From Bacteroides eggerthii (GTDB taxonomy: Bacteria > Bacteroidota > Bacteroidia > Bacteroidales > Bacteroidaceae), in contig NZ_CP102258.1 of the NCBI RefSeq assembly GCF_025146565.1, positions 3,070,001-3,134,000 on the forward strand: DNA of 64,000 nt. Reading direction: 5' to 3'. Below the pieces are notes generated by a model that was given only the letters and a program-made list of their open reading frames with translations, ran no database searches and was not told the DNA's origin. The position numbers and the translations under genes are program-made. How positions within the stretch are numbered: position 1 is the stretch's first letter; each line of letters opens with the position of its first letter. Positions 4,911-62,403 of this stretch are shown here, piece after piece.

Positions 4911-6251
4911 ATGAAAAGACTGACAGGTATACTCCTTCTCCTCTGCCTTGCCCTTGCCGCCGTTTCGTGCAAAGGTTCAGGCGAAGAGCGCAGCCACGTA
5001 CTGAAAATCTACAACTGGGCGGACTACATCGACGAAGACGTGCTTGCCGAATTCCCCGACTGGTACAAACAGCAGACAGGCGAGGACATCCGCCTTGTCT
5101 ACCAAGTGTTCGACATCAACGAAATCATGCTCACCAAGATAGAACGCGGGCACGAAGACTTCGACGTGGTATGCCCCTCGGAGTACATCATCGAACGCAT
5201 GCTGAAGAAAGACCTTCTCCTGCCCATCGACCGCAGCTTCGGCAAGACCCCGGACTATCTGCCCAACATTTCCCCCTACATCCGCCGGGAACTGAACAAG
5301 ACCAGTCAGCCGGGACGCACCACCACAGACTATGCCGTACCCTATATGTGGGGCACAGCCGGCATACTCTACAACCGCAGCTTCATCACCCCCGACGAAG
5401 CCGGCAGTTGGCACTGCCTGTGGAACTCCAAGAACAAAGGCAAGCTCCTGATGAAAGACAGCTACCGCGACGCCTACGGAACCGCCATCATCTACGCCCA
5501 CGCCCGCCAGCTTGCCGACAGCACCGTTACGGTGGAACAACTCATGAACGACAACTCCCCCGAAGCCATAGCCCTTGCCGAAAAGTACCTGAAAGCCCTG
5601 AAACCCAACATTTCCGGTTGGGAGGCCGATTTCGGCAAGGAGATGATGACCAAGAACAAAACATGGCTCAACCTCACCTGGAGCGGCGACGCCGTATGGG
5701 CAATTGACGAAGCCGAGGCCGTAGGCGTAGACCTTGCATACGAAGTGCCGCGCGAGGGCAGCAACATCTGGTACGACGGCTGGGTAATCCCCAAATACGC
5801 CCGGAATCCCAAGGCAGCCAGCTACTTCATCAACTACCTCTGCCAGCCCGAAATCGCCTTGCGCAATATGGACGCCATAGGCTACGTCAGCGCCGTTGCC
5901 ACCCCCGAAATCATGGAAGCCAAACGGGATACTTCCATAGAAACACGCTCCGACCTCAGCTACTTCTTCGGTGAAGGCATGGGCGCGGACAGCCTGCAAA
6001 TCAATCCCGTACAATATCCCGACAGGAAAATCGTGGAACGCTGCGCCATGATACGCGACTTCGGCGACCGCACCGAACTGGTTCTCGAAATGTGGAGCCG
6101 CGTGAAAGGCGACAACCTCAACACCGGCATCGTACTGCTGATATTCTCCGTATTCGGAGCACTGTTCGTTTGGCTGGTATACGGCAAGATACGCAAGTAC
6201 CGGCAGAAGCAACGCCACCGCCGGAGGCGGAAGGGAAGGCCGGCGATTTAA
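4911..6251 (+). CDS. potD: Spermidine/putrescine-binding protein PotD, lipoprotein with C-terminal membrane helix
   Basis: A 446-residue solute-binding protein. The start is ATG 4911 with the lipoprotein signal MKRLTGILLLLCLALAAVSC (lipobox Cys20). The body matches the PotD/PotF fold (KIYNWADYIDEDVL, NEIMLTKIERG, DVVCPSEYIIERM, VPYMWGTAGILYN). E. coli PotD has about 348 residues. Here the C-terminus is longer and ends in a hydrophobic helix (GIVLLIFSVFGALFVWLVYG, near residues 405-424) followed by a very basic tail. The protein may therefore be anchored twice. A longer reading frame running in from inside potC is not believed, because potC is clearly coding in another frame. Confidence 0.93.
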   Translation: MKRLTGILLLLCLALAAVSCKGSGEERSHVLKIYNWADYIDEDVLAEFPDWYKQQTGEDIRLVYQVFDINEIMLTKIERGHEDFDVVCPSEYIIERMLKKDLLLPIDRSFGKTPDYLPNISPYIRRELNKTSQPGRTTTDYAVPYMWGTAGILYNRSFITPDEAGSWHCLWNSKNKGKLLMKDSYRDAYGTAIIYAHARQLADSTVTVEQLMNDNSPEAIALAEKYLKALKPNISGWEADFGKEMMTKNKTWLNLTWSGDAVWAIDEAEAVGVDLAYEVPREGSNIWYDGWVIPKYARNPKAASYFINYLCQPEIALRNMDAIGYVSAVATPEIMEAKRDTSIETRSDLSYFFGEGMGADSLQINPVQYPDRKIVERCAMIRDFGDRTELVLEMWSRVKGDNLNTGIVLLIFSVFGALFVWLVYGKIRKYRQKQRHRRRRKGRPAI

Positions 6252-6282
6252 AACACCGGATAAGCCATTTAAAACCCCGGAT
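6246..6282 (+). repeat. 21-bp-spaced direct repeat at the potD stop
   Basis: ATTTAAAACNCCGGAT occurs at 6246-6261 and 6267-6282 with one difference, starting 21 bp apart. The first copy contains the potD stop codon. It lies between potD and nagA; function unknown. Confidence 0.55.
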
Positions 6283-6306
6283 GTAGGAATTCTGATTTAT
6301 AATACT

Positions 6307-6314
6307 TAATTTTG
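6307..6314 (+). promoter_or_regulatory. -7 element upstream of nagA
   Basis: TAATTTTG fits TAnnTTTG 26 bp before the nagA start. No clear TTTG is found 19-21 bp upstream, so nagA may have its own weak promoter or be read through from pot. Confidence 0.35.
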
Positions 6315-6340
6315 GCATCCGATAAACTTAAAACCTAAAA

Positions 6341-7507
6341 ATGCTTACTCAAATTATAAACGGGCGCATATTCACCCCGCAGGGCTGGCTGAATGAAGGT
6401 TCTGTCCTGATACGTGACGGAAAGATTCTTGAAGTGACCAACTGTGACCTCGCACTGATCGGTGCACGTCTCATTGATGCCAAAGGCATGTACATAGTGC
6501 CCGGTTTCGTGTGTATGCACGCCCATGGCGGCAGCGGACACGACTTCAACGAATGTACCGAGGAAGCATTCCGCAGCATCGTGCAGGCACACCTCAAGCA
6601 TGGCGCCACAAGCTTCTACCCCACCATCTCCTCCTCCCCCTTCAGCAAGCTCCACCAAGCCGCCCATGTGTGCGAACGGCTCATGGAAGAACCGGACAGC
6701 CCCATACTCGGACTGCATATCGAAGGCCCTTACCTCAGCAGGAAAATGGCCGGCGAGCAGTTTGCCGGACAGGTGAAAGAGATTGACGAACAAGAATACA
6801 GGGAACTTGTGGAAAACACCCGCTGCATCCGCCGCTGGGACGCCTCTCCCGAACTGCCGGGAGCATTGGAGTTTGCCGGCTACCTGCGCGAAAAAGGCAT
6901 ACTGGCAGCCATATCCCACACCGAAGCCGAGTATGACGACATCTGCGCCGCCTACAAAGCCGGATTCACCCATGCCGCCCACTTCTACAACGCCATGCCG
7001 GGCTTCCACAAACGCCGCGAATACAAATACGAGGGCACAGTGGAAAGCGTCTACCTGACCGACGGCATGACCATCGAACTCATAGCCGACGGCATCCACC
7101 TGCCTTCCACCATCTTGAAACTGGCCTACAAACTGAAAGGCGTGGAGCACACCTGCCTCGTAACGGACGCCCTCTCCTGTGCCGCAACCGAAGGCAAGGA
7201 AACCAGCAACCCCCGCTACATCATCGAGGACGGCGTATGCAAACTCGCCGACCGTTCCTCACTGGCAGGCAGCATCGCCACAATGGACGTGCTGGTGCGC
7301 ACCATGACACAGGCCGGCATCCCGCTGGGAGACGCACTGCGAATGGCTTCCGAAACTCCGGCACGCATCATGGGAGTGTACGACCGCAAAGGCTCCCTGC
7401 AAAAGGACAAAGACGCCGACATCCTGATTATGGACAAGGAACTGAACATACGCGCCGTATGGCAAGCGGGAAAACTGGTGCAGGAAAGCTTCCTGAACTA
7501 TAAGTAG
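6341..7507 (+). CDS. nagA: N-acetylglucosamine-6-phosphate deacetylase
   Basis: A 388-residue amidohydrolase-fold enzyme that removes acetate from GlcNAc-6-phosphate, feeding host- or wall-derived amino sugars into glycolysis and wall synthesis. Metal-binding and catalytic motifs are visible: MHAHGG (about residue 60), LHIEGPYLS with the metal-ligand Glu, ISHTEAEYDD, THAAHFYNAM, DGIHLP, and the catalytic Asp in LVTDALSCA. Length fits the family. nagB is not in the window. It starts 89 bp after potD. Confidence 0.95.
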   Translation: MLTQIINGRIFTPQGWLNEGSVLIRDGKILEVTNCDLALIGARLIDAKGMYIVPGFVCMHAHGGSGHDFNECTEEAFRSIVQAHLKHGATSFYPTISSSPFSKLHQAAHVCERLMEEPDSPILGLHIEGPYLSRKMAGEQFAGQVKEIDEQEYRELVENTRCIRRWDASPELPGALEFAGYLREKGILAAISHTEAEYDDICAAYKAGFTHAAHFYNAMPGFHKRREYKYEGTVESVYLTDGMTIELIADGIHLPSTILKLAYKLKGVEHTCLVTDALSCAATEGKETSNPRYIIEDGVCKLADRSSLAGSIATMDVLVRTMTQAGIPLGDALRMASETPARIMGVYDRKGSLQKDKDADILIMDKELNIRAVWQAGKLVQESFLNYK

Positions 7508-7577
7508 CGACGCGCCCGAAAGCCTGTTTCTAAAAAAAACCTTTTTTATAAGTTTCTTATAATTCTTTTTCAGTATC

Positions 7578-8906
7578 GTGCTCGGAGCCAAAAATCTTAC
7601 CCAAGGACCCATCAACCGCCAACTGTTCAGCTTGGCAATGCCCATTATGGCCACCTCCTTCATCCAAATGGCATACAGCCTGACGGATATGGCATGGGTG
7701 GGCCGTCTGGGCAGCGAAGCGGTGGCGGCAGTGGGCGCGGTGGGCATCCTCACGTGGATGTCAGGCTCTATCGCTCTGCTGAACAAAGTGGGGTCGGAAG
7801 TCAGTGTGGCACAGTCCATCGGGGCGCAGAACCGGGACGACGCGCGTGCGTTTGCCTCGCACAACATCAGCATCGCATTGCTCATCGCCATTTGCTGGGG
7901 CGGACTGCTGTTTGTTTTCGCCCGGCCCATTATGAGCCTTTTCGAACTGGAAGCACATATCACCGCCAACGCCGTCACCTACCTGCGCATTGTCTCGACA
8001 GCATTGCCCTTCGTCTTTCTCTCGGCTGCCTTTACGGGCATCTACAACGCTTCGGGACGCAGCAAGACACCGTTCTACATCAGCGGTACGGGACTTGTGA
8101 TGAATATCCTGCTCGACCCTCTCTTCATCTTCGGGTTCGGCTGGGGAACCGTAGGGGCAGCGCTTGCCACGTGGCTGTCCGAAGCTGCCGTCTTCCTCAT
8201 CTTTGTCTATAAGCTCCGGCGAAAGGACGACTTGCTCGGAGGATTTCCGTTTTTCGTCCGGCTCAAGAGGAAGTACAGCAGACGCATCTTCAAACTGGGA
8301 CTGCCCGTTGCCACGCTGAACACACTGTTTGCCTTCGTCAACATGTTCCTCTCGCGCACTGCAGCCGAGCAAGGCGGGCACATCGGACTCATGGCATTCA
8401 CCACCGGCGGACAAATAGAAGCTATCACCTGGAATACCTCACAGGGATTCTCTACGGGGCTCAGCGCCTTCATCGCACAGAATTATGCCGCCGGACAGAA
8501 AACGCGCGTGTGGCAGGCATGGAAAACGACGCTCTGGATGACAGGAGTGTTCGGCACGCTCTGCTCGCTGCTGTTCATCTTCTACGGCAGCGAGGTATTC
8601 TCCATTTTCGTGCCCGAAGAAGCAGCCTACCGCACTGGCGGCAATTTCCTGCGCATCGACGGCTACTCACAGTTGTTCATGATGCTGGAAATCACCATGC
8701 AGGGCGTATTCTACGGCATAGGACGCACCGTACCGCCGGCCGTTGTCAGCATCGGATGCAACTACATGCGCATTCCGGTGGCCCTGCTACTGGTAGAAAT
8801 GGGTTTGGGAGTGGACGCCATTTGGTGGGCAGTGAGCAGCACCACCATCGTCAAGGGGCTGATTCTGACAGGATGGTTTATCTTTATTAAAAAGAAAATT
8901 CTCTAA
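7578..8906 (+). CDS. MATE family efflux transporter (NorM/DinF-like)
   Basis: A 442-residue membrane protein with about 12 hydrophobic segments arranged as two similar halves (LFSLAMPIMATSFIQMAYSL and FKLGLPVATLNTLFAFVNMF). It would export cationic drugs or metabolites in exchange for Na+ or H+. The only reasonable start is GTG at 7578, just before LGAKNLTQGPINRQL, a typical MATE N-terminus. It follows nagA by 70 bp. Substrate cannot be deduced. Confidence 0.9.
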   Translation: MLGAKNLTQGPINRQLFSLAMPIMATSFIQMAYSLTDMAWVGRLGSEAVAAVGAVGILTWMSGSIALLNKVGSEVSVAQSIGAQNRDDARAFASHNISIALLIAICWGGLLFVFARPIMSLFELEAHITANAVTYLRIVSTALPFVFLSAAFTGIYNASGRSKTPFYISGTGLVMNILLDPLFIFGFGWGTVGAALATWLSEAAVFLIFVYKLRRKDDLLGGFPFFVRLKRKYSRRIFKLGLPVATLNTLFAFVNMFLSRTAAEQGGHIGLMAFTTGGQIEAITWNTSQGFSTGLSAFIAQNYAAGQKTRVWQAWKTTLWMTGVFGTLCSLLFIFYGSEVFSIFVPEEAAYRTGGNFLRIDGYSQLFMMLEITMQGVFYGIGRTVPPAVVSIGCNYMRIPVALLLVEMGLGVDAIWWAVSSTTIVKGLILTGWFIFIKKKIL

Positions 8907-50541: not shown

Positions 50542-51126
50542 ATGGATACATTACTCAAAGAGACGGTGGACCTTACAGTCAACTCCCGTTATCCCGGCAT
50601 GGCTCCCGAAGGCAGACGGCAAATAGAAGAAGTCCTGATCCGCAAAGAAGTGGAAAAAGGAGAGATTCTATTGAAAGAAGGACAAATAAGCCATAATCTT
50701 GTATTCGTCGGCAAAGGCATGTTGCGCCAGTTCTACTATAAAAACGGCAAGGACGTCACCGAACATTTCTCTTATGAAGGTTGCATTATCATCTGCATTG
50801 AAAGTACCCTGAAGAAAGAGCCCACCCACCTCATGATTGAGGCGCTTGAGGACAGCATTGTCTACTTGCTGCCTTATGACAAGCTGATGCTGCTCACCGA
50901 AGTGTCTTGGGAAATCAATATGTTCTACCGCAAAATACTCGAATATTCCCTCATCACTTCACAAATAAAAGCCGACTCCTGGCGGTTCGAAACTGCACGC
51001 GAGCGTTACAACCTGCTGATGCAGCACCAGCCTGAAGTTATCAAGCGGGCTCCCTTGTCGCACATTGCTTCCTATCTGCTGATGACTCCGGAGACATTGA
51101 GTAGAGTGCGTTCGGGCATACTCTGA
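50542..51126 (+). CDS. Crp/Fnr family transcriptional regulator
   Basis: A 194-residue protein. Residues about 10-120 form a cyclic-nucleotide-binding fold (EKGEILLKEGQISHNLVFVG, KGMLRQFYYKNGKDVTEHF) without the full cAMP pocket motif. The C-terminus holds a helix-turn-helix (PLSHIASYLLMTPETLSRVR) that ends a few residues after the recognition helix, a shortened form common in Bacteroides. It is divergent from the MATE exporter, a common regulator-pump layout. Start ATG 50542 is chosen because the first residues of a longer frame lie inside the promoter region. Confidence 0.85.
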   Translation: MDTLLKETVDLTVNSRYPGMAPEGRRQIEEVLIRKEVEKGEILLKEGQISHNLVFVGKGMLRQFYYKNGKDVTEHFSYEGCIIICIESTLKKEPTHLMIEALEDSIVYLLPYDKLMLLTEVSWEINMFYRKILEYSLITSQIKADSWRFETARERYNLLMQHQPEVIKRAPLSHIASYLLMTPETLSRVRSGIL

Positions 51127-51270
51127 CGTTTCTACGGGGTTGTCCGGACCGGTCATATCTGAATTTATATAGAATATTAACTTATTCTATGCCTAAACAG
51201 CTTCCTGTCTCAAATCTTTTTATGAGACAGCTTGTTTATCAAAAACGTTATTCATCTTAAAATTCAGATT

Positions 51271-52197
51271 ATGACCACAATATATACTTTCGCACAAAGT
51301 GCGATCGAAGAAGCCCAAAATGCCGGACGCTATGGAACCGCCAATCTGTACACCAGCGCCATTAAAAGTTTCCGAAAATTCACCGGAGACATACCTCTTA
51401 CCTTCAAAGAACTCACACCGGGACTGATTAAGAAATACGAAGAAAGCCTGCTCCAGAAAGGGCGGCGCCACAACACCATATCAGCCTATATGCGTATGCT
51501 GCGCTCCATCTTCAACCAAGCGTACGTACAAGGCATTCCCGATGCCACATCTGCCGACGAACTGTTTCGCTTCGTATTCACAGGATACGAGCCTACCACC
51601 AAGCGGGCCATCTCTCCCGCCCTTATACGCCGCCTTTCACAGTTAAAGTTGGAGCAGCATCCTCATTTATGCTTCAGCCGCGACCTGTTCCTGCTTAGTT
51701 TTTACCTCAGAGGAATTCCATTTGTCGACCTCGTCTATCTTCGCAAGACGGACATGAGGCATAACACCATTTATTACTACCGCCACAAAACCCGCCAGCA
51801 GCTATCGGTCTACATCGAACCTTACGCTGCCGACATCCTGCGCCGGTACACTAACAAACATTCCCAATCCCCCTATCTCCTACCCATACTTTCGTCCACC
51901 GGCTCGGAAGGCTACCGGCAATACAAAAGCGCCTTACGCCTTTACAACCAACATCTGCACCAACTTTCCAAAATGCTACATCTAAACGTGCCACTCACCT
52001 CCTACGTGGCGCGCCACTCTTGGGCCACCACCGCCAAAGAAGAGGGAGTAGCCATTGCCATGATAAGCGAAGGCCTGGGACACAGCTCCGAAAAAGTAAC
52101 AAACGTTTATCTCGCCTCCTTCAACAACAATGCAATGAGCAAAGCCAACAGGAAAGTCATTTCAAGAATCTATCCAAAGAAAAAGAAAAAAAGGTAA
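51271..52197 (+). CDS. Tyrosine-type site-specific recombinase (probable DNA invertase of the capsule promoter)
   Basis: A 308-residue recombinase starting at MTTIYTFAQSAIEEAQ. Residues about 10-95 are a SAM-like core-binding domain. The catalytic domain contains the first Arg in SFYLRGIPFVDLVYL, a Lys-bearing strand (YYRHKTRQQLSVYI), the box HSWATTAKEEG with an upstream Arg (YVARHSW), HSSEKVTNVYL with the nucleophile Tyr, and a Lys-rich end. It lies 56 bp from a perfect pair of inverted repeats, which it probably recombines. Similar integrase genes stand before capsule loci in other Bacteroides. Confidence 0.92.
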   Translation: MTTIYTFAQSAIEEAQNAGRYGTANLYTSAIKSFRKFTGDIPLTFKELTPGLIKKYEESLLQKGRRHNTISAYMRMLRSIFNQAYVQGIPDATSADELFRFVFTGYEPTTKRAISPALIRRLSQLKLEQHPHLCFSRDLFLLSFYLRGIPFVDLVYLRKTDMRHNTIYYYRHKTRQQLSVYIEPYAADILRRYTNKHSQSPYLLPILSSTGSEGYRQYKSALRLYNQHLHQLSKMLHLNVPLTSYVARHSWATTAKEEGVAIAMISEGLGHSSEKVTNVYLASFNNNAMSKANRKVISRIYPKKKKKR

Positions 52198-52253
52198 GTT
52201 AAAATGTAAAATATATTCACATATACAAAGAAAAAGCTAAAATATCTATCTCA

Positions 52254-52576
52254 TTCTCTTACTTACAAGGTAAGAGAATGAGATTTATGGGGACAAAGGT
52301 AGAAAAAAAATCAACAAATAAGCAAATGATTTTATATTTTAATCAAATTATATGGTATTAAACCTCATAAAATATAAATAAAAACTATTTTTCATTATTG
52401 CGTTCATTTCGATTTTATTTACACATTTTTCTTTCCTGTTTTATTCTATTCTCTGACATCATTTTCTCAATTTAAACAATAATAAGCATCGTTAATGTGT
52501 AATAATCAGATGTTAACAAAGAGAGAGAGACTATTTACTATGCCTCATTTATTCTCTTACCTTGTAAGTAAGAGAA
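52254..52576. promoter_or_regulatory. Invertible capsule promoter segment (in OFF orientation here)
   Basis: Perfect 25-bp inverted repeats at 52254-52278 and 52552-52576 enclose 273 bp of non-coding DNA. Each repeat has 9-bp arms (TTCTCTTAC and GTAAGAGAA) around a 7-bp centre (TTACAAG or CTTGTAA), the layout of a tyrosine-recombinase crossover site. At the left repeat the palindrome extends to 15-bp arms. The only consensus promoter inside points left, away from the capsule genes. Inversion would place it facing right, with its -7 element ending near 52536, about 125 bp before the first capsule gene. Confidence 0.85.
52294..52326 (-). promoter_or_regulatory. Promoter inside the invertible segment
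   Basis: On the minus strand TTTG (52323-52326), 21 bp, TACCTTTG (52294-52301). The plus strand of the segment has no TTTG or TAnnTTTG at all, so the direction of this promoter decides the state of the locus. Confidence 0.7.
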
Positions 52577-52661
52577 CATAAAAACAGGAACAAGCAATTA
52601 AAGAGTACGGCCTAATTCTTTTTTTATCGGAAAAAACTGATTATAAACGTATTACAAATCC

Positions 52662-54065
52662 ATGAAACAAGTATTACGATTTAATAAAGTCATCAAGTTA
52701 ATCATCATTGCCGGTGATTTATGTATATTGAATACTATCTTCATAGTATTATATCATATAATAGATGTCCAGACCCTCGGTGAGACATTTGCCAATTCTC
52801 TTCTCCGGCTATTAGTCCTTCTGAACCTGGTCTATATTACCTGCAACTACTCCCAAGGCGTTATTCTGCATGAACGCATTGTGCGTCCGGAACGGATTGT
52901 GACGCGTGCCATACGCAACACTTTTTTCCATGCAGTAGTATTCATCAGCCTTATCAGTCTTGCAGATTTCGGAACTCTTTCCGCACGTTTCTTTATCTTG
53001 TTCTATTTCTTTTTTCTTATTTGCTTAACTATCTACCGGCTGACTTTCCGCCAAATTTTAAAGTCCTATCGTCGTTCGGGCGGCAACTCCCGTAGCACCA
53101 TACTCTTAGGCGACGGTGAAGACATGATTGAGCTTTACCATGAAATGGCAGGAAATGCAGCATCCGGTTTCAAGATAATCGGCTATTTTGCGGAAGCGCC
53201 TTCCCCACTCTATCCCGAACAATGCCCTTATTTGGGCCTTCCCCAACATGCACTTCCTTACATCCAACATAGCCCAACAGAACACGTGTACTGCGGACTT
53301 CCTTCATCATACAGCAAGGAAATCCTACCCATCATCAATTACTGTGAAAATCATCTTATACACTTTTACAGTGTGCCCGATGTGCGCAGATACCTCAAAC
53401 GCCACATGCATTTTGAAATGTTGGGCAACGTTCCCATTCTATACATCCGTCAGGAACCATTGGCGCAGCCGGAAAACAGACTTCTTAAACGAATGTTCGA
53501 CATTCTTTTCTCACTGCTTTTTCTGTGCACGCTTTTCCCTGTGATATACCTGATAATAGGCACAGCCATAAAAATCACCTCACCCGGTCCCATCTTCTTC
53601 AAGCAAAAACGCAGTGGAGAAGCCGGCAAAGAGTTCTGGTGCTACAAGTTCCGTTCCATGCGCGTAAACAAAGACAGTGACACCATGCAGGCCACCAAAA
53701 ACGATCCGCGCAAAACGAAGTTGGGAAATTTCCTACGCAAAAGCAACATCGACGAACTTCCGCAGTTCATCAACGTCCTGTTGGGCAGCATGTCCGTAGT
53801 GGGACCTCGTCCTCACATGCTGAAACACACCGAGGAATATTCCAAGCTGGTTGACAAATACATGGTGCGGCATCTCATAAAACCCGGCATCACCGGATGG
53901 GCGCAAATCAACGGTTTTCGTGGCGAGACCAAAGAACTGTGGCAAATGGAAGGCCGCGTGGAACGAGACATCTGGTATCTGGAACACTGGACTTTCATGC
54001 TCGACCTATACATCATTTACAAAACCGTAAAAAACCTGATAAGAGGAGATAAAGAGGCCTATTGA
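52662..54065 (+). CDS. Undecaprenyl-phosphate glucose phosphotransferase (WcaJ-like)
   Basis: A 467-residue polyprenyl sugar-1-phosphate transferase that puts the first sugar of a capsule repeat on undecaprenyl phosphate. Four N-terminal membrane helices, a CoA-binding-like middle domain ([20 protein letters not shown]), another membrane segment and the catalytic domain follow: [55 protein letters not shown], and [17 protein letters not shown]. Gluco- versus galacto-specificity cannot be fixed from sequence. It is first behind the invertible promoter. Confidence 0.93.
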
Positions 54066-54109
54066 AGTGAATCGAAGCTTGAGTATTGAAAGTTAAAAAC
54101 CAAAAACAC

Positions 54110-54916
54110 ATGAAAAGAAGAAATCTGATATTTTTATTATTGCCTCTGCTACTGGCAGGATGCCAAAGCTACAAGAAAGTGCCTTATCTGCAGAATGATT
54201 TGGGCCAGATTGCCTCAGCCGATACAAGCACACGCAGCATGACCCTATATGATGCCCGCATCATGCCGAAAGACTTGCTGACAATCGTAGTGAGCTGTCC
54301 TGAAGAGCCCGAACTGGCAGAACCATTCAACCTGACCATAGCAACTCCCGCCAGCAACACCGGCAACAGATCCCTTACTTCCCAGCCTGCGCTGCAACAA
54401 TATCTCGTAGACAATGACGGAAATGTGGAATTTCCCGTATTGGGTACTATCCACTTAGGCGGCCTCACCAAAGGAGAAGCCGAACAGTACATCAAGGACA
54501 AACTCAAATCCCAGTTTCGTGGAACACCCATTGTCACCGTACGCATGGTTAATTATAAAATTTCAGTCATCGGCGAAGTGGGCAGTCCGGGAACATTTAC
54601 CATCTCCAACGAAAAGGTCAATATCTTCGAAGCCCTTGCCATGGCAGGCGATATGACTATCTACGGCATTCGCGATAACGTGAAGCTGATTCGTGAAGAC
54701 AATACCGGCAAACGTGAGATTGTGACGCTCAACCTGAACGATCAGGACATTCTGCAATCACCTTATTACTACCTGCAACAGAATGACATTTTATATGTCA
54801 CCCCAAATAAGACCAAGGCAAAAACATCCAATATCAGTAGCAGCACCACTATCTGGTTCTCGGTTGTCGGCTCACTGGTTTCATTGGCGAGTCTTATTAT
54901 AGCAATTACCAAATAA
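54110..54916 (+). CDS. Polysaccharide export lipoprotein (Wza-like)
   Basis: A 268-residue outer-membrane polysaccharide export protein. ATG 54110 gives the lipoprotein signal MKRRNLIFLLLPLLLAGC. The Poly_export domain (YDARIMPKDLLTIVVSCPEE) and SLBB-like domains (VDNDGNVEFPVLGTIHLGG, ISVIGEVGSPGTFTISNEK) follow. A C-terminal membrane helix (VVGSLVSLASLIIAITK) is the amphipathic barrel segment typical of Wza. The kinase gene begins directly after its stop codon. Confidence 0.93.
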   Translation: MKRRNLIFLLLPLLLAGCQSYKKVPYLQNDLGQIASADTSTRSMTLYDARIMPKDLLTIVVSCPEEPELAEPFNLTIATPASNTGNRSLTSQPALQQYLVDNDGNVEFPVLGTIHLGGLTKGEAEQYIKDKLKSQFRGTPIVTVRMVNYKISVIGEVGSPGTFTISNEKVNIFEALAMAGDMTIYGIRDNVKLIREDNTGKREIVTLNLNDQDILQSPYYYLQQNDILYVTPNKTKAKTSNISSSTTIWFSVVGSLVSLASLIIAITK

Positions 54917-57376
54917 GTGAGACAGAAAGACAAAACTGTAAATAAAAAAATTACGGACGTGAAAGAAGAAATATACGACGACTTGTTCGAAGAAAAAGAA
55001 GAGAAAACCAACTGGCAGGCTACACTTTTCAAATATGTCATCCGCTGGCCGTGGTTTATAGCCTCAATCATTCTCTGCATGGCATGTGCATGGCTCTATC
55101 TGAAAACCATTACTCCGGTGTACAATATCAACGCATCCATCATTATCAAGGATGACAAGAAAGGTGGAAATTCCGGCGGTGATCTCAGTGCATTCGAGAA
55201 CTTCGGCTTCATATCGTCCGCTAAAAACATTGACAATGAAATAGAAATTCTCCGCAGCAAATCGCTCATCAAGGATGTAGTCAGCGAACTGGGCTTATAC
55301 ATTAGCTATTCAGGCGAAAGCGGATTCAACAGAATCGATTTATACGGTTCATCCCCAATACTTGTGCATTTCCTGCCCGAAGATGCCGAACGCATGTCTG
55401 CCCCTATACTTCTGAACATCAGCTATCACTCCAACCAACAGATAGATGTGACGGCAACCATTGGAGAAAATACCGTCAGCAAACATTTCACGAAATTACC
55501 AGCCGTTCTCTCCGGTGAGGCCGGTACACTCACTTTTATGTCCAACCCTTCTGTTCCTCCCACAGGCAGCGGTAATATAGATGTAAGCATTGTCAATCCC
55601 CTGTCCGTAGCCAAAGGATACCGGGGAGCCTTGTCCATTGAACCGACCAGCAAAAGCACTTCCGTTGTTACCGTATCGGTGAAAAACACGAATAAGAAAC
55701 GCGGCGAGGATTTTATAAACAAGCTAATAGAAATATATAATAAAAAAGCCAACAACGACAAGAACGAAGTGGCGCAGAATACCGCCCGGTTCATTGACGA
55801 ACGCATCTCCGTCATCAATCAGGAATTAGGCACTACGGAGCAGGAGCTGGAAAGCTTCAAACGCGAAGCAGGCCTCACCGACCTCAGCAACGACGCACAG
55901 CTTGCCGTCAGCGAACAGTCCGCCTACGAAAAGCTGTGCGTGGAAAACGGCACACAGCTCAATCTGATTCAGTATCTCTCCGAATACATTCAAAAGCCGG
56001 AAAATGCAACCTCCACCCTACCTGCCAACGTGGGGCTGAACGACGCCACCCTATCCGGCCTTATAGCCCAATACAATGCCCTGATTCTGGAACGTAACCG
56101 ACTGCTGCGCACTTCTTCGGAAGCCAACCCTGTTGTGCGCCGTCTCGACAGCAATATACAGGATATGCGTGCCGGTATCATCACCACCATTACCAGCACA
56201 CGCAAAGGACTGCTCATCACCAAAGCCGACCTCGACCGTCAGGCAGGCAAATACGCCGGACGCATCAGTAACGCTCCTGCACAGGAACGCCGTTTCGTCA
56301 GCATCCAGCGCCAGCAGGAAATCAAAGCTGGACTTTATCTCATGCTATTGCAGAAACGCGAGGAAAACAACATCGCACTGGCTGCTACCGCCAATAATGC
56401 CAAAATCATAGACGATGCATTGGCAGATGATTTCCCGGTATCTCCCAATAGTAAGTCAATCTACATGATTGCGTTCACACTTGGACTCGGTATTCCGGCA
56501 GGGATTATTTACATCCTGAATCTCCTCAGTTTCCGTATTGAGGGACGTGCCGATGTAGAGAAACTCACCGCTGTACCCATTATCGGCGATCTTCCCCTTA
56601 CCGAACCGGAAGCCGGACACACTCATACCATAGCCGTCCGCGAAAACGACAATGATATTATGGCGGAAACATTCCGGAGCCTGCGCACCAACCTGCTTTT
56701 CATTTTGGGCGATCCGGACAAGAAAGTAATTCTCATCACATCCACCATGAGTGGTGAGGGAAAAACATTCATCGCATCCAATTTGGCTGTCAGCCTGGCA
56801 TTATTGGGAAAGAAAGTGATTATCGTCGGGCTGGACATCCGCAAGCCGGGACTGAACAAAGTGTTCCACATCTCCCACAAGGAGTATGGCATCACCCAAT
56901 ATTTGTCTGCCCCCCAAAGCACCGATCTGCGTTCCATGATACAACCTTCCGGCATATCTCCCAATCTCAGCGTATTGCCCGGCGGAATCATACCACCCAA
57001 CCCAACGGAACTGCTGGCACGCCAATCCTTAGAAGATGCCGTTGAAATATTGAAACAAGATTACGATTATATCGTGCTTGATACCGCCCCTATCGGCATG
57101 GTGACCGATACGCAGCTTATAGCTCGTGTGGCCGACGCCAGTATTTATGTCTGCCGCGCCGATTATACACATAAGAACGATTACCAACTGATCAACGAGT
57201 TGTACAACAATAATCGTTTGCCCAATTTGTGCACCGTCATCAACGGGCTGGATATGAAAAAGAAGAAATACGGCTATTACTACGGCTACGGCAAGTATGG
57301 CAAGTACTATGGTTACGGCAAGAAATATGGCTACGGTTATGGATACGGCTATGGCAGCACCTCCGACCGTAAATAG
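54917..57376 (+). CDS. Capsule chain-length/tyrosine autokinase (Wzc-like)
   Basis: An 819-residue inner-membrane protein with N-terminal Wzz domain, coiled coil and C-terminal BY-kinase. GTG 54917 directly follows the upstream stop and is the only start ahead of the Wzz part. Membrane helices lie near residues 45-65 and 515-535. Kinase motifs: Walker A STMSGEGKTFIASN, A' VGLDIRKPG, and Walker B YIVLDTAPIG. The last residues are a Tyr-Gly-Lys tail (YGYYYGYGKYGKYYGYG), the autophosphorylation cluster that controls polymer length and export. The tail is unusually dense in Tyr (about 15). Confidence 0.94.
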   Translation: MRQKDKTVNKKITDVKEEIYDDLFEEKEEKTNWQATLFKYVIRWPWFIASIILCMACAWLYLKTITPVYNINASIIIKDDKKGGNSGGDLSAFENFGFISSAKNIDNEIEILRSKSLIKDVVSELGLYISYSGESGFNRIDLYGSSPILVHFLPEDAERMSAPILLNISYHSNQQIDVTATIGENTVSKHFTKLPAVLSGEAGTLTFMSNPSVPPTGSGNIDVSIVNPLSVAKGYRGALSIEPTSKSTSVVTVSVKNTNKKRGEDFINKLIEIYNKKANNDKNEVAQNTARFIDERISVINQELGTTEQELESFKREAGLTDLSNDAQLAVSEQSAYEKLCVENGTQLNLIQYLSEYIQKPENATSTLPANVGLNDATLSGLIAQYNALILERNRLLRTSSEANPVVRRLDSNIQDMRAGIITTITSTRKGLLITKADLDRQAGKYAGRISNAPAQERRFVSIQRQQEIKAGLYLMLLQKREENNIALAATANNAKIIDDALADDFPVSPNSKSIYMIAFTLGLGIPAGIIYILNLLSFRIEGRADVEKLTAVPIIGDLPLTEPEAGHTHTIAVRENDNDIMAETFRSLRTNLLFILGDPDKKVILITSTMSGEGKTFIASNLAVSLALLGKKVIIVGLDIRKPGLNKVFHISHKEYGITQYLSAPQSTDLRSMIQPSGISPNLSVLPGGIIPPNPTELLARQSLEDAVEILKQDYDYIVLDTAPIGMVTDTQLIARVADASIYVCRADYTHKNDYQLINELYNNNRLPNLCTVINGLDMKKKKYGYYYGYGKYGKYYGYGKKYGYGYGYGYGSTSDRK

Positions 57377-57434
57377 CATATACCCCATAAGTCCGGGGTA
57401 CTTCTACATGAAATACTGTCCCCGTCTCCGGGCT

Positions 57435-57442
57435 TATATTTG
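57435..57442 (+). promoter_or_regulatory. -7 element between the kinase and upxY genes
   Basis: TATATTTG. No well-spaced TTTG upstream. If active, its transcript would start just before the terminator hairpin that precedes upxY. Confidence 0.3.
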
Positions 57443-57452
57443 TTTGTTTGTC

Positions 57453-57495
57453 GGTACGTTGCGGCGGTAGAGCGCTGCCGTCGCACGTACCTTTT
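57453..57495 (+). terminator. Strong intrinsic terminator in the upxY leader
   Basis: GGTACGT (57453-57459) pairs with ACGTACC (57485-57491), then after a 1-nt bulge GCG-G-CGG (57461-57467) pairs with CCG-T-CGC (57478-57484), and four T follow. The hairpin stands 22 bp before the upxY start, so the downstream gene needs read-through or antitermination. Confidence 0.7.
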
Positions 57496-57517
57496 AAACT
57501 AATGGATCACAAAAACA

Positions 57518-58081
57518 ATGCAAAGTACCAAATACACAGAAACGGAAACCGACGCCGTTTGTCGCCAATGGCTGGTGGCTTACGTGCAGTCATGCCTTGA
57601 GAAGAGGACAGCCCGGCGGCTCGCCGCTATGGGCATTGAATGTTATCTGCCCATTCAAAGTGAGATTCACCAGTGGAGCGACCGCCGCAAACGGGTGGAC
57701 CGCCTGATAATTCCGATGATGATATTCGTGCACGTCACTCCGCAGGAACGTGCGCTTCCGCTAAGCCTGCAAGCCGTCAACCGCTATATGGTGTTGCGCG
57801 GTGAAAGTGCGCCTGCCGTAATCCCCGACGAGCAAATGGCACAATTCCGCTTCATGCTCGATTACAGTCAGGAGGCAGTGGAGATGTGCAGCGCCCCGCT
57901 CGCTCCCGGCGACGCCGTAAAAGTCATAAAAGGCCCGCTGGCCGGACTGGAAGGAGAACTCGTCATCCTAAACGGAAAAAGCAAAGTAGCCGTCCGTCTG
58001 GACAAACTGGGATATGCCCATGTGGATATGCCCGTAGGCTTTGTAGAGAAAAAAAAGAAGGCGCCAACCGGCGCCTTCTAA
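57518..58081 (+). CDS. upxY: UpxY family transcription antiterminator (NusG-like)
   Basis: A 187-residue NusG-type protein. Residues about 15-120 are the NGN domain (RQWLVAYVQSCLEKRTARRL, GIECYLPIQSEIHQWSDRRK, LIIPMMIFVHV), and residues about 130-180 a KOW motif (GDAVKVIKGPLAGLEGELVI). In B. fragilis, UpxY proteins let polymerase pass early terminators in their own capsule locus. Normally upxY opens a locus and is followed by upxZ; here it follows the export genes and no upxZ is present in the window. Its last codons overlap a hairpin that serves the opposite strand. Confidence 0.9.
   Translation: MQSTKYTETETDAVCRQWLVAYVQSCLEKRTARRLAAMGIECYLPIQSEIHQWSDRRKRVDRLIIPMMIFVHVTPQERALPLSLQAVNRYMVLRGESAPAVIPDEQMAQFRFMLDYSQEAVEMCSAPLAPGDAVKVIKGPLAGLEGELVILNGKSKVAVRLDKLGYAHVDMPVGFVEKKKKAPTGAF
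58051..58078 (-). terminator. Terminator of the HU-smalltalk operon, overlapping the upxY end
   Basis: GAAGGCGCC (58057-58065) is the exact reverse complement of 58070-58078, with a 4-nt loop. On the minus strand the stem is followed by T6 or more (the A-run at 58049-58056), so it is a perfect intrinsic terminator for the minus strand. It encodes the last residues of UpxY on the plus strand. Confidence 0.8.
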
Positions 58082-58136
58082 ACAAAACATGCAACAAAGA
58101 GCATTACGCTCTTACACTGTCAGGACATCTCCCCTC

Positions 58137-58250
58137 CTACACCGTCATCGCATTTGCCCCGAACACGCCCAGCACTGCCGAGGCCACTGCAATCACCACT
58201 TTCAGAATTGTATCCCAAATACCTGCACTTTTACTCATTTTCTTCTTCAT
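58137..58250 (-). CDS. Smalltalk protein
   Basis: A 37-residue protein found by reading the minus strand from ATG 58250: MKKKMSKSAGIWDTILKVVI, then a hydrophobic stretch and the end GANAMTV. It has one membrane helix after a basic N-terminus. Sequence and place beside an HU-like gene match the tiny Bacteroides family named 'smalltalk'. Function unknown; the basic-plus-helix form would suit a small membrane or holin-like protein, but that is a guess. It follows the HU-like gene by 36 bp. Confidence 0.85.
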   Translation of the reverse strand: MKKKMSKSAGIWDTILKVVIAVASAVLGVFGANAMTV

Positions 58251-58286
58251 TTTAAATTGTTCATAAAAACTTGTTCATCACTCTCC

Positions 58287-58784
58287 TCATCCCAACGGGT
58301 TTTCCTCTTCCCCATCGTCCGGAAGGCCGCCTGTTCCGCCCGATGAACTGCCGCCGTCGGCAGAAACCAGTTCGTAGGTAATGTTATTCGGAGCGCCTTT
58401 CGTGGTGGCTACCGAATCGTTCACCAGTCGCAACGTACCGGCAACCTTGAAGTTGACCCGCACCTTATCAATGTTCTTCACCGTACAATCCTTTTCCAGC
58501 TCCGTAGCCACACAATGGAACGAAGTGCGGAAAATCCCGAAATCATCCAGACGGACACTGTTTCCGTCTGCCAACTTCTCACGTATGTTTCTCACGATTG
58601 CCTTGCCCACGTGCAGCACATCTTCCGCCGACATGCCACCCAAAGCCTCAATCTCTTCCGCGATACGCTTCAAATCATACATCTTCGCATCGCGCGGCTT
58701 TCTTTTCAGGGTATAAACCAGCGGAGAAGTCTTATCTCCAATCTTTTTGTAGCGCTGTGTACGCACTACCAATGCATTTGCCAT
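58287..58784 (-). CDS. HU family DNA-binding protein with extra C-terminal tail
   Basis: A 165-residue protein. Residues about 36-90 (DLKRIAEEIEALGGMSAEDV, SVRLDDFGIFRTSF) match the HU/IHF fold, but it has an extra N-terminal segment (about 35 residues, TQRYKKIGDKTSPLVYTLKR) and a Gly/Ser/acidic tail (GGSSSGGTGGLPDDGEEENP). This is the long HU-like form common beside capsule loci and mobile regions of Bacteroides. A -7 element (TATCTTTG, 58871-58878 minus strand) lies upstream. It shares an operon with smalltalk. Confidence 0.88.
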   Translation of the reverse strand: MANALVVRTQRYKKIGDKTSPLVYTLKRKPRDAKMYDLKRIAEEIEALGGMSAEDVLHVGKAIVRNIREKLADGNSVRLDDFGIFRTSFHCVATELEKDCTVKNIDKVRVNFKVAGTLRLVNDSVATTKGAPNNITYELVSADGGSSSGGTGGLPDDGEEENPLG

Positions 58785-59051
58785 AAATCTTTACTTTTTT
58801 AATGGTTGTTACTTTTTCACTTTTCAATTCTCGATTGTCAAATCTCTCAGGAGCTCCTTTTTTGACAATGCAAAGATACCTCCTCCACCCCACTCCGCTA
58901 CCCCTTCTCACCCCTTTGCGCATCCTTGCACACCATAAGGAGAGTTACCGCGGCTTATGGCACCTTATGACGCAATAAACCTCTGCACATGCTTTCATAC
59001 CCCGTCATTTTTCATTAACTTTACATCAACAATCGTAATAAAAATGTTCCA

Positions 59052-59276
59052 ATGGAAAAATCCTCATTCACCATACGCAGTTACAGCAAAAGCGAGCTGG
59101 CCATGCTTTACAGCCCTTACATCACACCCAAAGCCGCTGTCCGGAAACTAAACCGCTGGATAGCCTTCAAACCCGGACTTCAAGAACAACTCCGGGCCAG
59201 CGGCATGCTTCCCAACGCCAAATGCTACACGCCGCTTCAAGTGCACACAATCGTGGAAGCGCTGGGAGAACCCTGA
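59052..59276 (+). CDS. DUF4248 family protein
   Basis: A 74-residue protein: FTIRSYSKSELAMLYSPYIT, then PKAAVRKLNRWIAFKP and YTPLQVHTIVEALGEP. This is the DUF4248 pattern, a small helix-turn-helix-like family found next to HU-like and primase genes in Bacteroides capsule and mobile regions. It could bind DNA, perhaps as a replication accessory; unproven. It is divergent from the HU-like gene and convergent with the primase-helicase. Confidence 0.85.
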   Translation: MEKSSFTIRSYSKSELAMLYSPYITPKAAVRKLNRWIAFKPGLQEQLRASGMLPNAKCYTPLQVHTIVEALGEP

Positions 59277-59288
59277 CGTTTACAAAGC

Positions 59289-59325
59289 AAATGCCGGGCG
59301 TTGCTGCTGCAAACACCCGGCATTT
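59289..59325 (+). terminator. Terminator of the DUF4248 gene
   Basis: AAATGCCGGG (59289-59298) is the exact reverse complement of 59316-59325, with a 17-nt loop, 12 bp after the stop codon. Further degenerate CCCCGGA repeats follow at 59335-59370. Confidence 0.6.
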
Positions 59326-59379
59326 CATGCGTAAATCCCCGGACTTTCAGGAGTAAAACCCCGGAAAAACAACCAAACA

Positions 59380-59411
59380 TTTGATTCCTGCCCCTAAAAT
59401 TCCTACTTTTG
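59380..59411 (+). promoter_or_regulatory. Consensus promoter pointing antisense into the primase-helicase gene
   Basis: TTTG (59380-59383), exactly 20 bp, TACTTTTG (59404-59411): a full match. It would start a transcript near 59418 that runs antisense across the 3' end of the primase-helicase gene. No convincing plus-strand gene follows. Confidence 0.6.
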
Positions 59412-59473
59412 CATGATTTTTCAGAACAAATGTACGAACTCCTCTTTTTGTGAGAGGGGGCGGCGTAGCGTTT

Positions 59474-61453
59474 TCATCCCTCTTCCTTTTTCAGCAGTTC
59501 AATCCAGGGCAGCCTGTCCTTATCCAGCACTTTGCCCTGCATTTCTGCCATTACCTGCTGTTCCGACTCGCGCTCATCATACCGGCCGCATGGCTGCCGC
59601 ACGAACAACACGCTGCCCGTCCGGCACAAATCCTGGTCGCGCACCTTCAGCATGTCGAGCCTTGTATAGTTGCGGTCCGGCTGGTTGATGCGGCTGATAG
59701 AAAAAATGAAGTCGGCAAGATTGGCCCAGTTGGCACTGCCCGAAATGGTGTACATGTCTATTTCTTCCAGTTCATCCTTTCCACTCTGCTTCTTCAGGCT
59801 GCGGGGATGCGCCACGATGATGACCCAGATGCCATTGCTGCGCCCCCATGCCTGCATCTGCGTCAGCATGGCCTTAATGGCCTGTGTTTCCGTATTGTAG
59901 CGTCCGCTTTCCATCTCCATGAAAAGATACGGGTCGATGATGAGATACTTCAACGGTACAGCCCGTTTCACCCGTTCCGCACGCTCAATGATATTGGTAG
60001 GTGTGGGCGAAATCTCATGCAGATCCAGATGCACCATGTGGGCGTTCAGAAAAGAGACAATGGGCTGCAACTGCTCCCGGGTATATGCCGTCATGTTCAC
60101 TTTGCCCAACATCAACCGGATGAGGTGCGCAATGTGCTTATTCTTGTCGGGAACCTCGAAAGAGAGAAAGCAGACGTAGCGCCCGGTCTTGGCCATGAGG
60201 TGGCAAGTCAGGTCATTCAGAAAATCCGTCTTGCCGCTGTTGGGCTTCCCGGTAACGATTATCAGTCCGCCCTGATCGGTGGGATGAAACACTTGGTCGG
60301 TCAGCGGGCCATAGCCCACATCGTATCCATGATCGTATTCGCCACGCAGCACGTTCAGCACCTCATCCGTCCGTTCGCCTACGGTGATGATGTCCGCCGT
60401 ATGCCGCGGACGTGCAGAGTCGATAATCTCGCGCACCACACCGGAACCGTATGCCACAAGCACATCGGATATGTCCTTGCAGCCGCCGGGCAAAGTGGTG
60501 AACAGGCAGCGGGACCCGAAGTAGTCGGCAAGGTGCTTCACGAGTGTCCGCCCCGGCAGGTCGCAATCACCGCAAATCACCAGTTCGCGCACCTGGTCCA
60601 GCCAGGGAACAAAAGCCTCGAAACTTTTGCGAAGGTCGCTTGCAGCGCCGTTGGGCACACTGATGACATAAGGGTAGCCCGCCTCGTACAGAGTCAGCAC
60701 ATCCCTTCCTCCTTCGGTGACAATCAGACGGGCAACACTCTCTTCGGAAATCCGCAGCGGGTTAATGCAGTCGATATTATAGGGCGGACAAGGCGTAGTG
60801 GGCGAATCCTGACTCCAGCATTTGGTGTATCCGGACGAGGAAGGGTCGCACGAACGATACTTCACGTTGACAGGTTGCCCGTTGACGTAGTTCACATAGG
60901 CAATGCAGTGGTACATCGTTCCGGCAGCGTTCTTTTCGTCCTTGCCGTCCTTTCCACCGAAGCAGCGGTGCGTCAGGCAACCGAGATGTGCACTGACAGC
61001 CGTTTTCAGGGATATTCCCTGGTCGGCAAGATAACGGCGGGCGGCAAGCTGATCAGGGTCGGCCGTCTCCGGCTCATCTGTCAGCGGCTTTATTCTGGCG
61101 AGCACGTCGGGCGAGAGATGTTTGTAGTCATCGGGAATCATCGAGACTTCGGACACGAAAGTTTCCCCACCACCGGCATTGCCCGCCAACGCCGCACTTC
61201 CGTTCTTCCTTCCCGCCGATGCAGGGAAAGAAGCGGACGGGCCGCCATACGCCCTCCCGGCCGACAGCGGGCGTTCTTCCCAAAAGTCTTTCAGGCGGCC
61301 ATGAAAATCACATCCGGCATAGAAACAATGGTAAAATCCCGTCTCGCGGGAAATCGAAAGGTGTTTCTTGCCACATTTAGGACACAGGGCCAGATAATTC
61401 TTACCCACGTTCTTGCGTTCAGGAAAATCGCAGAGATAATAAAACGGTTTCAC
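59474..61453 (-). CDS. Primase-helicase (zinc finger, TOPRIM, DnaB-like helicase)
   Basis: A 659-residue phage-type replication protein of the T7 gp4/Twinkle kind. The N-terminus has a CHC2-like zinc finger (ALCPKCGKKHLS with FYHCFYAGC). The TOPRIM part (RLIVTEGGRDVLTLYEAGY, VICGDCDLPGRTLVKHL) follows near residues 245-330. The C-terminal helicase shows Walker A IVTGKPNSGKTDF, KYLIIDPYLFME and IWVIIVAHPRSL. The start is GTG 61453, overlapping the upstream stop by 4 bp (GTGA). Such genes recur beside Bacteroides capsule loci, without known capsule function. Confidence 0.88.
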   Translation of the reverse strand: MKPFYYLCDFPERKNVGKNYLALCPKCGKKHLSISRETGFYHCFYAGCDFHGRLKDFWEERPLSAGRAYGGPSASFPASAGRKNGSAALAGNAGGGETFVSEVSMIPDDYKHLSPDVLARIKPLTDEPETADPDQLAARRYLADQGISLKTAVSAHLGCLTHRCFGGKDGKDEKNAAGTMYHCIAYVNYVNGQPVNVKYRSCDPSSSGYTKCWSQDSPTTPCPPYNIDCINPLRISEESVARLIVTEGGRDVLTLYEAGYPYVISVPNGAASDLRKSFEAFVPWLDQVRELVICGDCDLPGRTLVKHLADYFGSRCLFTTLPGGCKDISDVLVAYGSGVVREIIDSARPRHTADIITVGERTDEVLNVLRGEYDHGYDVGYGPLTDQVFHPTDQGGLIIVTGKPNSGKTDFLNDLTCHLMAKTGRYVCFLSFEVPDKNKHIAHLIRLMLGKVNMTAYTREQLQPIVSFLNAHMVHLDLHEISPTPTNIIERAERVKRAVPLKYLIIDPYLFMEMESGRYNTETQAIKAMLTQMQAWGRSNGIWVIIVAHPRSLKKQSGKDELEEIDMYTISGSANWANLADFIFSISRINQPDRNYTRLDMLKVRDQDLCRTGSVLFVRQPCGRYDERESEQQVMAEMQGKVLDKDRLPWIELLKKEEG

Positions 61454-62403
61454 AAGTTCCCTCCTTCCCAGTTATTGCTCAGCACATTCCACACGCTCCC
61501 TGCTCCCGGGCGCGGAGACGCATCATCAGGGATGTTGACCATTCCCTCTATCGGGTCGTCATAAAAGCGCATTCCGGTTTCGGTGTCCGTCCACTCAAAC
61601 TCGCACAGCGGATGATTGTTGCGCTGCTCGCTCCGCATCTCACGCATTGCCTGCTCCCTTTTCCGCCTTCCGGCGGTTGCGGCATCCTTCAGCAGGCGTT
61701 GTCCATGGGCAGACTTCAGCAGGTTGTTCAGCCAGCACAGACGTCCGCTGTGACCGGATTTCATGAAACGCTCCTGCCCCGCAAAGTGAGGAACCAGCAA
61801 TTCGTTCACCAAGTGCACAAGGTTGGCACAGGCATCCCCGCGTGTCAGTCCCTCCTCCTGCTGGAAGCGGTTGATCAGCGGAATGAAGATCTGCAATTTC
61901 TGCACCGGGTTTTCGTTGATGACATGAAAGAAGTGCCGGGCAGCTTCCAGACATTCTTCCGCAGGAATCGGATTTCCTTTAGGAATATCTTTAGTAGATT
62001 TATAATTATTATATATATTATAATTATATATATCCGCTTGCGGAAACTTTTCCGGTAATTCTTCCGGTAATGTTTCCGGTAAACTTTCCGCAGCATCTTT
62101 TGCTTTCCAAAGATAAGAGTAGAAAGATTTCATTCCATACACATTGCCGTCCGGAACGATGCCGAACGAACGGCTTTGCCTGACCGCCTCCACCAGGCAG
62201 CGTGCATTCTTGAACTTCAACGACAGGCCGAGGTCGTAGAAATTCTCTACGGGGTAAACCGCTTCATCGTTCATGTAGGCGGTGACTCCCAAATAGAGGT
62301 CCAGCAGTTTCGAAATGGTAGAATCTGTTATTTTACGGCTTTTCCACAGCCCTATGGTCTTTCGCAGTTCGTATATGGAAAGAGTAGTCATGTTTGCTTT
62401 CAT
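61450..62403 (-). CDS. Replication-associated helper protein (DUF4373/DUF7833-like)
   Basis: A 317-residue protein with an N-terminal winged-helix-like part (LSIYELRKTIGLWKSRKITD, LLDLYLGVTAYM), a charged linker with a curious ELPEKFPQ-ADIYNYNIYNN stretch, and a C-terminal helical domain (RFQQEEGLTRGDACANLVHL). The layout is like phage replication-initiation or helicase-loader proteins that precede DnaB-like genes. It is coupled to the primase-helicase by a 4-bp overlap. The family name is from memory and may be inexact. Confidence 0.6.
   Translation of the reverse strand: MKANMTTLSIYELRKTIGLWKSRKITDSTISKLLDLYLGVTAYMNDEAVYPVENFYDLGLSLKFKNARCLVEAVRQSRSFGIVPDGNVYGMKSFYSYLWKAKDAAESLPETLPEELPEKFPQADIYNYNIYNNYKSTKDIPKGNPIPAEECLEAARHFFHVINENPVQKLQIFIPLINRFQQEEGLTRGDACANLVHLVNELLVPHFAGQERFMKSGHSGRLCWLNNLLKSAHGQRLLKDAATAGRRKREQAMREMRSEQRNNHPLCEFEWTDTETGMRFYDDPIEGMVNIPDDASPRPGAGSVWNVLSNNWEGGNL

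Follow-up and report, generated by a model that had tools for sequence, protein, structure and literature searches.

A probable Tsr-type promoter inverton ahead of wcaJ-wza-wzc capsule genes in Bacteroides eggerthii

The locus described here, which lies in a 64,000-nucleotide stretch of Bacteroides eggerthii DNA analysed as a whole (hereafter, the window), is very probably a locally encoded promoter inverton of the Tsr (tyrosine recombinase) type, captured in the orientation that is OFF for the adjacent capsule genes. Judging from sequence comparisons, promoter inversion at this locus is well supported; the neighbouring recombinase is the presumed actor, and the segment presumably also flips in the present strain. 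The kind of switch, the family of sites and the operon are already known, Tsr19/BF2766 being the literature precedent with experiments. In the open-access literature, we found no description of the present locus in the present species group. The features are listed in Table 1.

Table 1 Features of the switch and of the genes behind it, in window coordinates
Feature	Position	Strand	Evidence or remark
Tyrosine recombinase, 308 aa, candidate invertase	51271-52197	+	PF13102 7e-19, PF00589 9e-11; 3' end towards segment
Left recombination site (inverted repeat)	52254-52279	+	centre TTACAAG; palindrome grows to 15-bp arms over 52248-52284
Invertible segment	52279-52551	.	273 bp between 25-bp repeats; OFF orientation as shown
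Bacteroides-type promoter, towards recombinase (OFF for capsule genes)	52294-52326	-	TTTG, 21 bp, TACCTTTG
Right recombination site	52551-52576	-	left site reversed and complemented exactly; one copy in this locus, tandem copies in several relatives
WcaJ-type undecaprenyl-phosphate sugar phosphotransferase, first gene under switch when ON	52662-54065	+	TIGR03023 465 bits, over cut-off
Wza-type polysaccharide export protein	54086-54916	+	PF02563 4e-18
Wzc-type co-polymerase / tyrosine autokinase	54917-57376	+	TIGR01007 over cut-off
Structured leader, terminator-like hairpin and T-run, between wzc and upxY	57377-57517 (stem 57453-57491)	+	fold z-score -5.8; putative role
UpxY-family transcription antiterminator	57518-58081	+	NF033644 161 bits, over cut-off

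Each copy of the recombination site reads TTCTCTTAC-TTACAAG-GTAAGAGAA (9 + 7 + 9), and the palindrome of the left site has 15-bp arms at 52248-52262 and 52270-52284. The first-pass annotation of this DNA had described perfect 25-bp inverted repeats (52254-52278 and 52552-52576) with 9-bp arms, 7-bp centres and a distance of 273 bp; all of this was recovered, the true perfect match being 26 bp long. Perfect inverted repeats reached at most 14 bp across 1,000 dinucleotide shuffles of the intergenic DNA (464 bp), and within the 64-kb window the site pair is the sole perfect inverted repeat of at least 16 bp with arms 50-700 bp apart. With up to 3 mismatches allowed, no further copies of the 25-mer were found in the 4.2-Mb genome, and viral contigs contained 0 exact copies. 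When the genome was searched for a distant second target with a looser pattern, there were 22 + 28 matches (both real sites included), fewer than the 50 + 43 of the control, in searches that leave diverged sites possible. The switch had been proposed to be local and self-contained, and the lack of a detectable second repeat target in the genome is consistent with this.

Located at 52326 to 52294 on the minus strand, the promoter (TTTG-21-TACCTTTG) is the sole match to the Bacteroides consensus inside the segment (the −7 consensus being TAnnTTTG, as quoted in the excerpts of PMC4747536), and a still looser Bacteroides pattern adds one match, which lies across the left repeat. A scan for E. coli sigma-70 promoters found several weak sites within the segment and 19 sites over 51127-58400, compared to 12.1 (sd 3.5) in shuffles. 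The earlier claim of a single consensus promoter therefore stands for the Bacteroides consensus but not under the E. coli scan; that the promoter faces the recombinase, away from the capsule genes, was borne out on the minus strand. The promoter pattern also arises in 156 of 2,000 shuffles in its loose form and in 32 of 2,000 in its strict form (about 1.6-8%), so that the motif by itself is moderate evidence; its recurrence at the same place in orthologous loci is stronger evidence than the motif alone.

The recombinase gene, the stop codon of which ends at 52197, 56 bp ahead of the left repeat, had been called a tyrosine recombinase gene from the letters alone, and this is confirmed by the Pfam domains Phage_int_SAM_5 and Phage_integrase. 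In the motifs RGIPFVDL, HKT, YVARH, GLGH and VYL, we located R147, K173, R248, H249, H271 and Y280, which we take to be the expected catalytic residues of the tyrosine recombinase family.

Orthologues of the recombinase were sought in 158 genomes of the genus (E <= 1e-110, with the best 14 candidates per genome scored) and were identified in nine, the present genome included, with 66-90% identity in the eight others. At E <= 1e-60, 95 of 149 genus genomes had a match, many of these being paralogues. In all nine clade members (L001, i.e. the window locus, and L002, L003, L004, L005, L006, L007, L008 and L035), a site pair lies behind the 3' end of the recombinase gene, with 15-bp cores 275-291 bp apart; the gene is convergent with the segment, and 64-81 bp separate the end of the recombinase match from the first site core. 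This core-to-core length is steady across the nine loci despite an interior that is hardly conserved. The site centre is ACA in eight loci and CCA in L008, and the right copy in L005 is degenerate. On the capsule side, there is one site in three loci (L001, L005 and L008) and two in the other six, namely, L002, L004, L006, L007 and L035, which have tandem copies, and L003, whose tandem copy is degenerate; L002 has two sites on the recombinase side too. Capsule genes had been expected behind the switch, and by family profiles the genes for WcaJ, Wza and Wzc do come next in the window. Of the eight clade genomes besides that of the window, seven show the wcaJ-wza-wzc order behind the switch (L032/L002, L034/L006, L055, L056, L057, L059 and L060); these seven are the ones covered by a long stretch, G152 being the eighth genome. 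In L057 (genome G056), Wzc is matched at 5398-7712 as two overlapping parts, and the MatE match is split likewise, possibly as a result of frameshifts or assembly errors.

The promoter points to the recombinase in seven of the nine loci (L001, L002, L003, L006, L007, L035 and L008) and to the capsule genes in two (L004 and L005). Thus, the search of related genomes for a reversed segment, which the first-pass annotation had recommended, revealed both orientations among orthologous loci of different species (7 vs 2), with each species represented by one genome. When the inner segments of the nine loci were aligned pairwise in both directions, all 36 pairs agreed with the split based on the promoter. 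All 14 OFF-ON pairs scored higher with one segment reversed (the reversed score was reached by 0-4 of 300 shuffles), all 21 OFF-OFF pairs scored higher as read, and so did the ON-ON pair (28 vs 13). The reversed and as-read scores were 68 vs 16 for L003-L004 and 59 vs 15 for L002-L004. The OFF-ON pairs that include the window locus are weak, at 24 vs 14 with L004 and 19 vs 16 with L005, the weakest of all; a segment aligned to its own reverse reaches 22-29, and the interior is poorly conserved. Because the segments include the promoter, these alignments are not independent of promoter direction.

It had been argued that B. fragilis uses Mpi for its capsules and that the present switch is hence distinct. 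The locus is indeed not of the Mpi type, but the argument does not hold for B. fragilis as a whole because, according to the excerpts of PMC3090145 and PMC4747536, the tyrosine recombinase Tsr19 of this species inverts the promoter of an EPS operon (WbaP-type, Wza, Wzc). The Tsr19 locus (BF2780 in NCTC 9343; BF2766 in YCH46) with the EPS / large-capsule promoter IVp-I has the same order as the window, i.e. recombinase, invertible promoter and WbaP/WcaJ-Wza-Wzc, and likewise the Bacteroides −7 consensus. The window locus is OFF, and the B. fragilis promoter is mostly so, being OFF in the three strains compared in the excerpted part of PMC3090145 and predominantly OFF in culture in that of PMC4747536. 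The same excerpts describe repeats duplicated at one or both ends of the B. fragilis segment (PMC3090145), whereas the window has a single site on each side, and report that transcription decreases with more repeats between the promoter and the EPS genes (PMC4747536). Tsr19 also acts on a distant promoter in addition to the local one (PMC4747536, in excerpt); in the window, no distant target was found, and Crp-like and MatE genes lie upstream of the recombinase in place of Mpi. Given that the Mpi neighbour is absent from the window (Resolvase has 10 matches genome-wide and 0 in the window) and that there is no detectable distant target, we regard the window locus as related to the Tsr19/EPS switch, not as Tsr19 itself.

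Loci L053, L054, L058 and L009-L013 appear to be of the B. fragilis type. In L053 and L054, the genes for the recombinase, WcaJ, Wza and Wzc occur in the same order as in the window, and a Resolvase (Mpi-like) gene is located head-to-head with the recombinase gene, a layout that matches the arrangement of Mpi and Tsr19 in the published excerpts. Compared to the window, the recombinases of these two loci are 56-57% identical and WcaJ, Wza and Wzc are 65-74% identical; upxY is the gene immediately after wzc in the window but is found about 5 kb further along in L053 and L054. In L058, Resolvase is present and a WecG/glycosyltransferase-4 type gene replaces WcaJ. In the recombinase tree, the window clade (100/99) is placed beside five fragilis-type rows with weak support (82/77). 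The primers given in the excerpts of PMC3090145 were used in an attempt to identify the fragilis-type loci; they had no exact match in any of the loci searched, and a near match was seen by eye in L010. L011, which is without a promoter motif, aligns with L009 as read (255 vs 26); L013 has no promoter motif inside, and its alignment scores are 13 vs 12.

We propose that the recombinase would bind both palindromic sites and flip the segment by strand exchange within the identical centres. In the captured OFF state, the promoter would fire leftwards to the 3' end of the recombinase gene; in the ON state, it would come to lie just inside the right site and fire into wcaJ-wza-wzc via a short leader that contains the site hairpin. 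Transcription might then read through the hairpin upstream of upxY, and UpxY might act on the distal glycan cluster.

A different reading of the same inverton is that the OFF orientation chiefly serves antisense transcription into the recombinase gene, as a feedback on switching; we consider this unlikely, although several observations are compatible with it. In every one of the nine clade members, the recombinase gene runs towards the segment, its match ending 64-81 bp short of the first core, and no minus-strand terminator-like site was found in four of them (L002, L004, L006 and L008). If RNA antisense to the recombinase were made from the OFF promoter and lowered the recombinase level, OFF cells would rarely flip and ON cells would flip back readily; such cis-acting feedback, itself a doubtful proposition, would explain why seven of the nine switches are OFF, as well as the loss of the OFF bias of the B. 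fragilis Tsr19 switch once the recombinase was supplied from a plasmid (PMC4747536, in excerpt). However, terminator-like hairpins of varying strength stand in the path in the other five loci (L001, L003, L005, L007 and L035), and the convergence may merely hold the invertase outside promoter control, as the excerpts of PMC11892184 suggest. A terminator that shields the recombinase from the OFF promoter was considered as well and rejected as inconsistent between species (five of nine with, four of nine without).

To place the sites in a broader family, the pattern TTACTT-NNN-AGGTAA was searched in 23 genomes picked for strong recombinase matches, yielding 165 matches compared to 40 for the backward control. 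Grouping of sites less than 1.5 kb apart was performed on the 150 of the 165 matches listed (none from G120 or G079 and five of six from G017). Among these, there were 87 groups, of which 56 had both orientations and 31 were singletons; the two arms share one NNN and have their AGG side directed inward in 56 of the 56 two-orientation groups among the matches listed. Tandem second copies among the matches listed are 32-33 bp away, and the copies in L004 are 31 bp apart. Tyrosine recombinases need identical overlap sequences, which the equal NNN centres fit. The fixed polarity of the sites may reflect common descent, given that inversion leaves polarity unchanged. The possibility that NNN is a strict switch-specific barcode is refuted by G094, with four CAT groups, and G036, with three CAC groups. 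More distant switches or recombinases (L014-L030) were used for the site family and the tree only.

The genome of the present strain contains a second site pair of this family, with TGT as the centre and an adjacent recombinase of its own that is 39% identical to that of the window. In this genome, there are 31 Phage_integrase matches, the window recombinase among them, and another of the 30 could in principle act on the site under study; Tsr19, in the excerpts of PMC4747536, provides an example of action on both a distant and a local site. Even so, an inverton flipped by a recombinase encoded elsewhere, with the neighbouring enzyme serving other sites, is very improbable: the gene and the site pair are linked in nine of nine clade genomes and in the fragilis-type loci L009-L013, and the other site pair of the genome has its own recombinase and a different centre. 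It is scarcely credible that, without any inversion, the repeats serve just as RNA hairpins or as a terminator for both directions in the recombinase-wcaJ interval: each repeat is itself a hairpin, and the left one resembles a minus-strand terminator (15 pairs and a weak T tail), but hairpins do not need long-range identity between copies 298 bp apart, and the asymmetric centre shared by the two arms (in 56 of 56 groups among the matches listed) and the reversed segment in relatives (14 of 14 OFF-ON pairs) likewise argue against this reading.

The TGT-centre pair (L044, 6474-6798; genome positions 3450474-3450798) lies upstream of genes that encode surface proteins (DUF3575, OmpA-like and Mfa2-like). 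No promoter matching the Bacteroides pattern was found at this pair.

The excerpts of PMC12118408 also describe promoter switches of the tyrosine-invertase kind, with palindromic repeats of the GTTAC...GTAAC type, at CPS loci in B. thetaiotaomicron and B. xylanisolvens. As in the window, a tyrosine-type invertase/integrase is adjacent at CPS1/3/5/6 of B. thetaiotaomicron and at CPS loci of B. xylanisolvens (PMC12118408, in excerpt). In B. xylanisolvens, the invertible DNA is 289-290 bp long and the repeat contains TTACTT-CTT-AGGTAA, whereas the window has ACA rather than CTT as the centre and C/G rather than G/C as the flanks; the repeats of CPS3-5 in that species adjoin upxY, whereas in the window wcaJ-wza-wzc come first (all from the same excerpts).

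Mpi, a serine invertase, acts on many B. fragilis loci (PMC4747536, in excerpt), and its capsule promoters follow the same logic as the window locus, with an invertible promoter upstream of capsule genes. In the window, neither the 12-mer Mpi-type repeat ACGTTCGTTTAA nor its 10-base core was found, the bare 8-mer ACGAACGT occurring at 30538 only. In the genome, nine UpxY genes exceed the family cut-off, and the eight besides that of the window were examined. Seven of the eight loci have Mpi-type repeats (ACGTTCGTTTAA-like, 11-26 bp, with 176-188 bp between them and a promoter inside), two of the seven, L045 and L046, being ON in this assembly, with the promoter directed to the capsule genes, and five, L047, L048, L049, L050 and L051, being OFF, with the promoter directed away; at L052, no Mpi-type repeat was found. 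The combination of several Mpi-type capsules with one Tsr switch, an arrangement already known in B. fragilis, is seen here in another genome.

These observations extend the EPS switch type of B. fragilis to the B. clarus / gallinarum / fluxus group. Because the number of capsule-side sites varies within the clade and, in B. fragilis, correlates inversely with EPS transcription (PMC4747536, in excerpt), the clade is a natural series for testing the effect of site number on EPS transcription. The identical centres and the fixed polarity of the sites may, in addition, aid the prediction of cross-reacting switches.

Behind the capsule export genes, wzc is followed by upxY in the window, as it is in five of the seven further clade genomes covered by a long stretch (L032/L002, L034/L006, L055, L059 and L060); the stretches retrieved for L056 and L057 yielded no upxY. 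Of the six loci compared, five retain the hairpin between wzc and upxY, and L059 lacks it. In its stem, 9 of 17 pairs are changed on both sides (5 sequences), which 0 of 500 shuffles reach; further pair types number 12, and 470 of 500 shuffles are at least as high, so that an excess above shuffles is absent for this measure. No Rfam families were found in 51100-58400 at E <= 1. No promoter is conserved among the six loci in the wzc-upxY interval, and a separate upxY promoter was rejected, as the TATATTTG box at 57435 occurs in the window only and is missing from the other five loci compared. Given that a gene for an UpxY-family antiterminator is located directly after the hairpin, it is plausible that the hairpin is a terminator that needs read-through, which would make the UpxY level dependent on the switch.

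The genes after upxY are on the minus strand (HU-like, primase/helicase-like and one without a family match). A plus-strand glycan cluster extends from about 63 kb onward, beyond the end of the window, with genes for a UDP-sugar dehydrogenase, a flippase, an EpsG-type polymerase, a UDP-galactopyranose mutase, an acyltransferase and several glycosyltransferases; because minus-strand genes intervene, this cluster is probably a separate transcription unit. The minus-strand HU-like and primase/helicase-like genes separate upxY from the glycan cluster over 58287-62403, and similar genes are present in L055 and L060.
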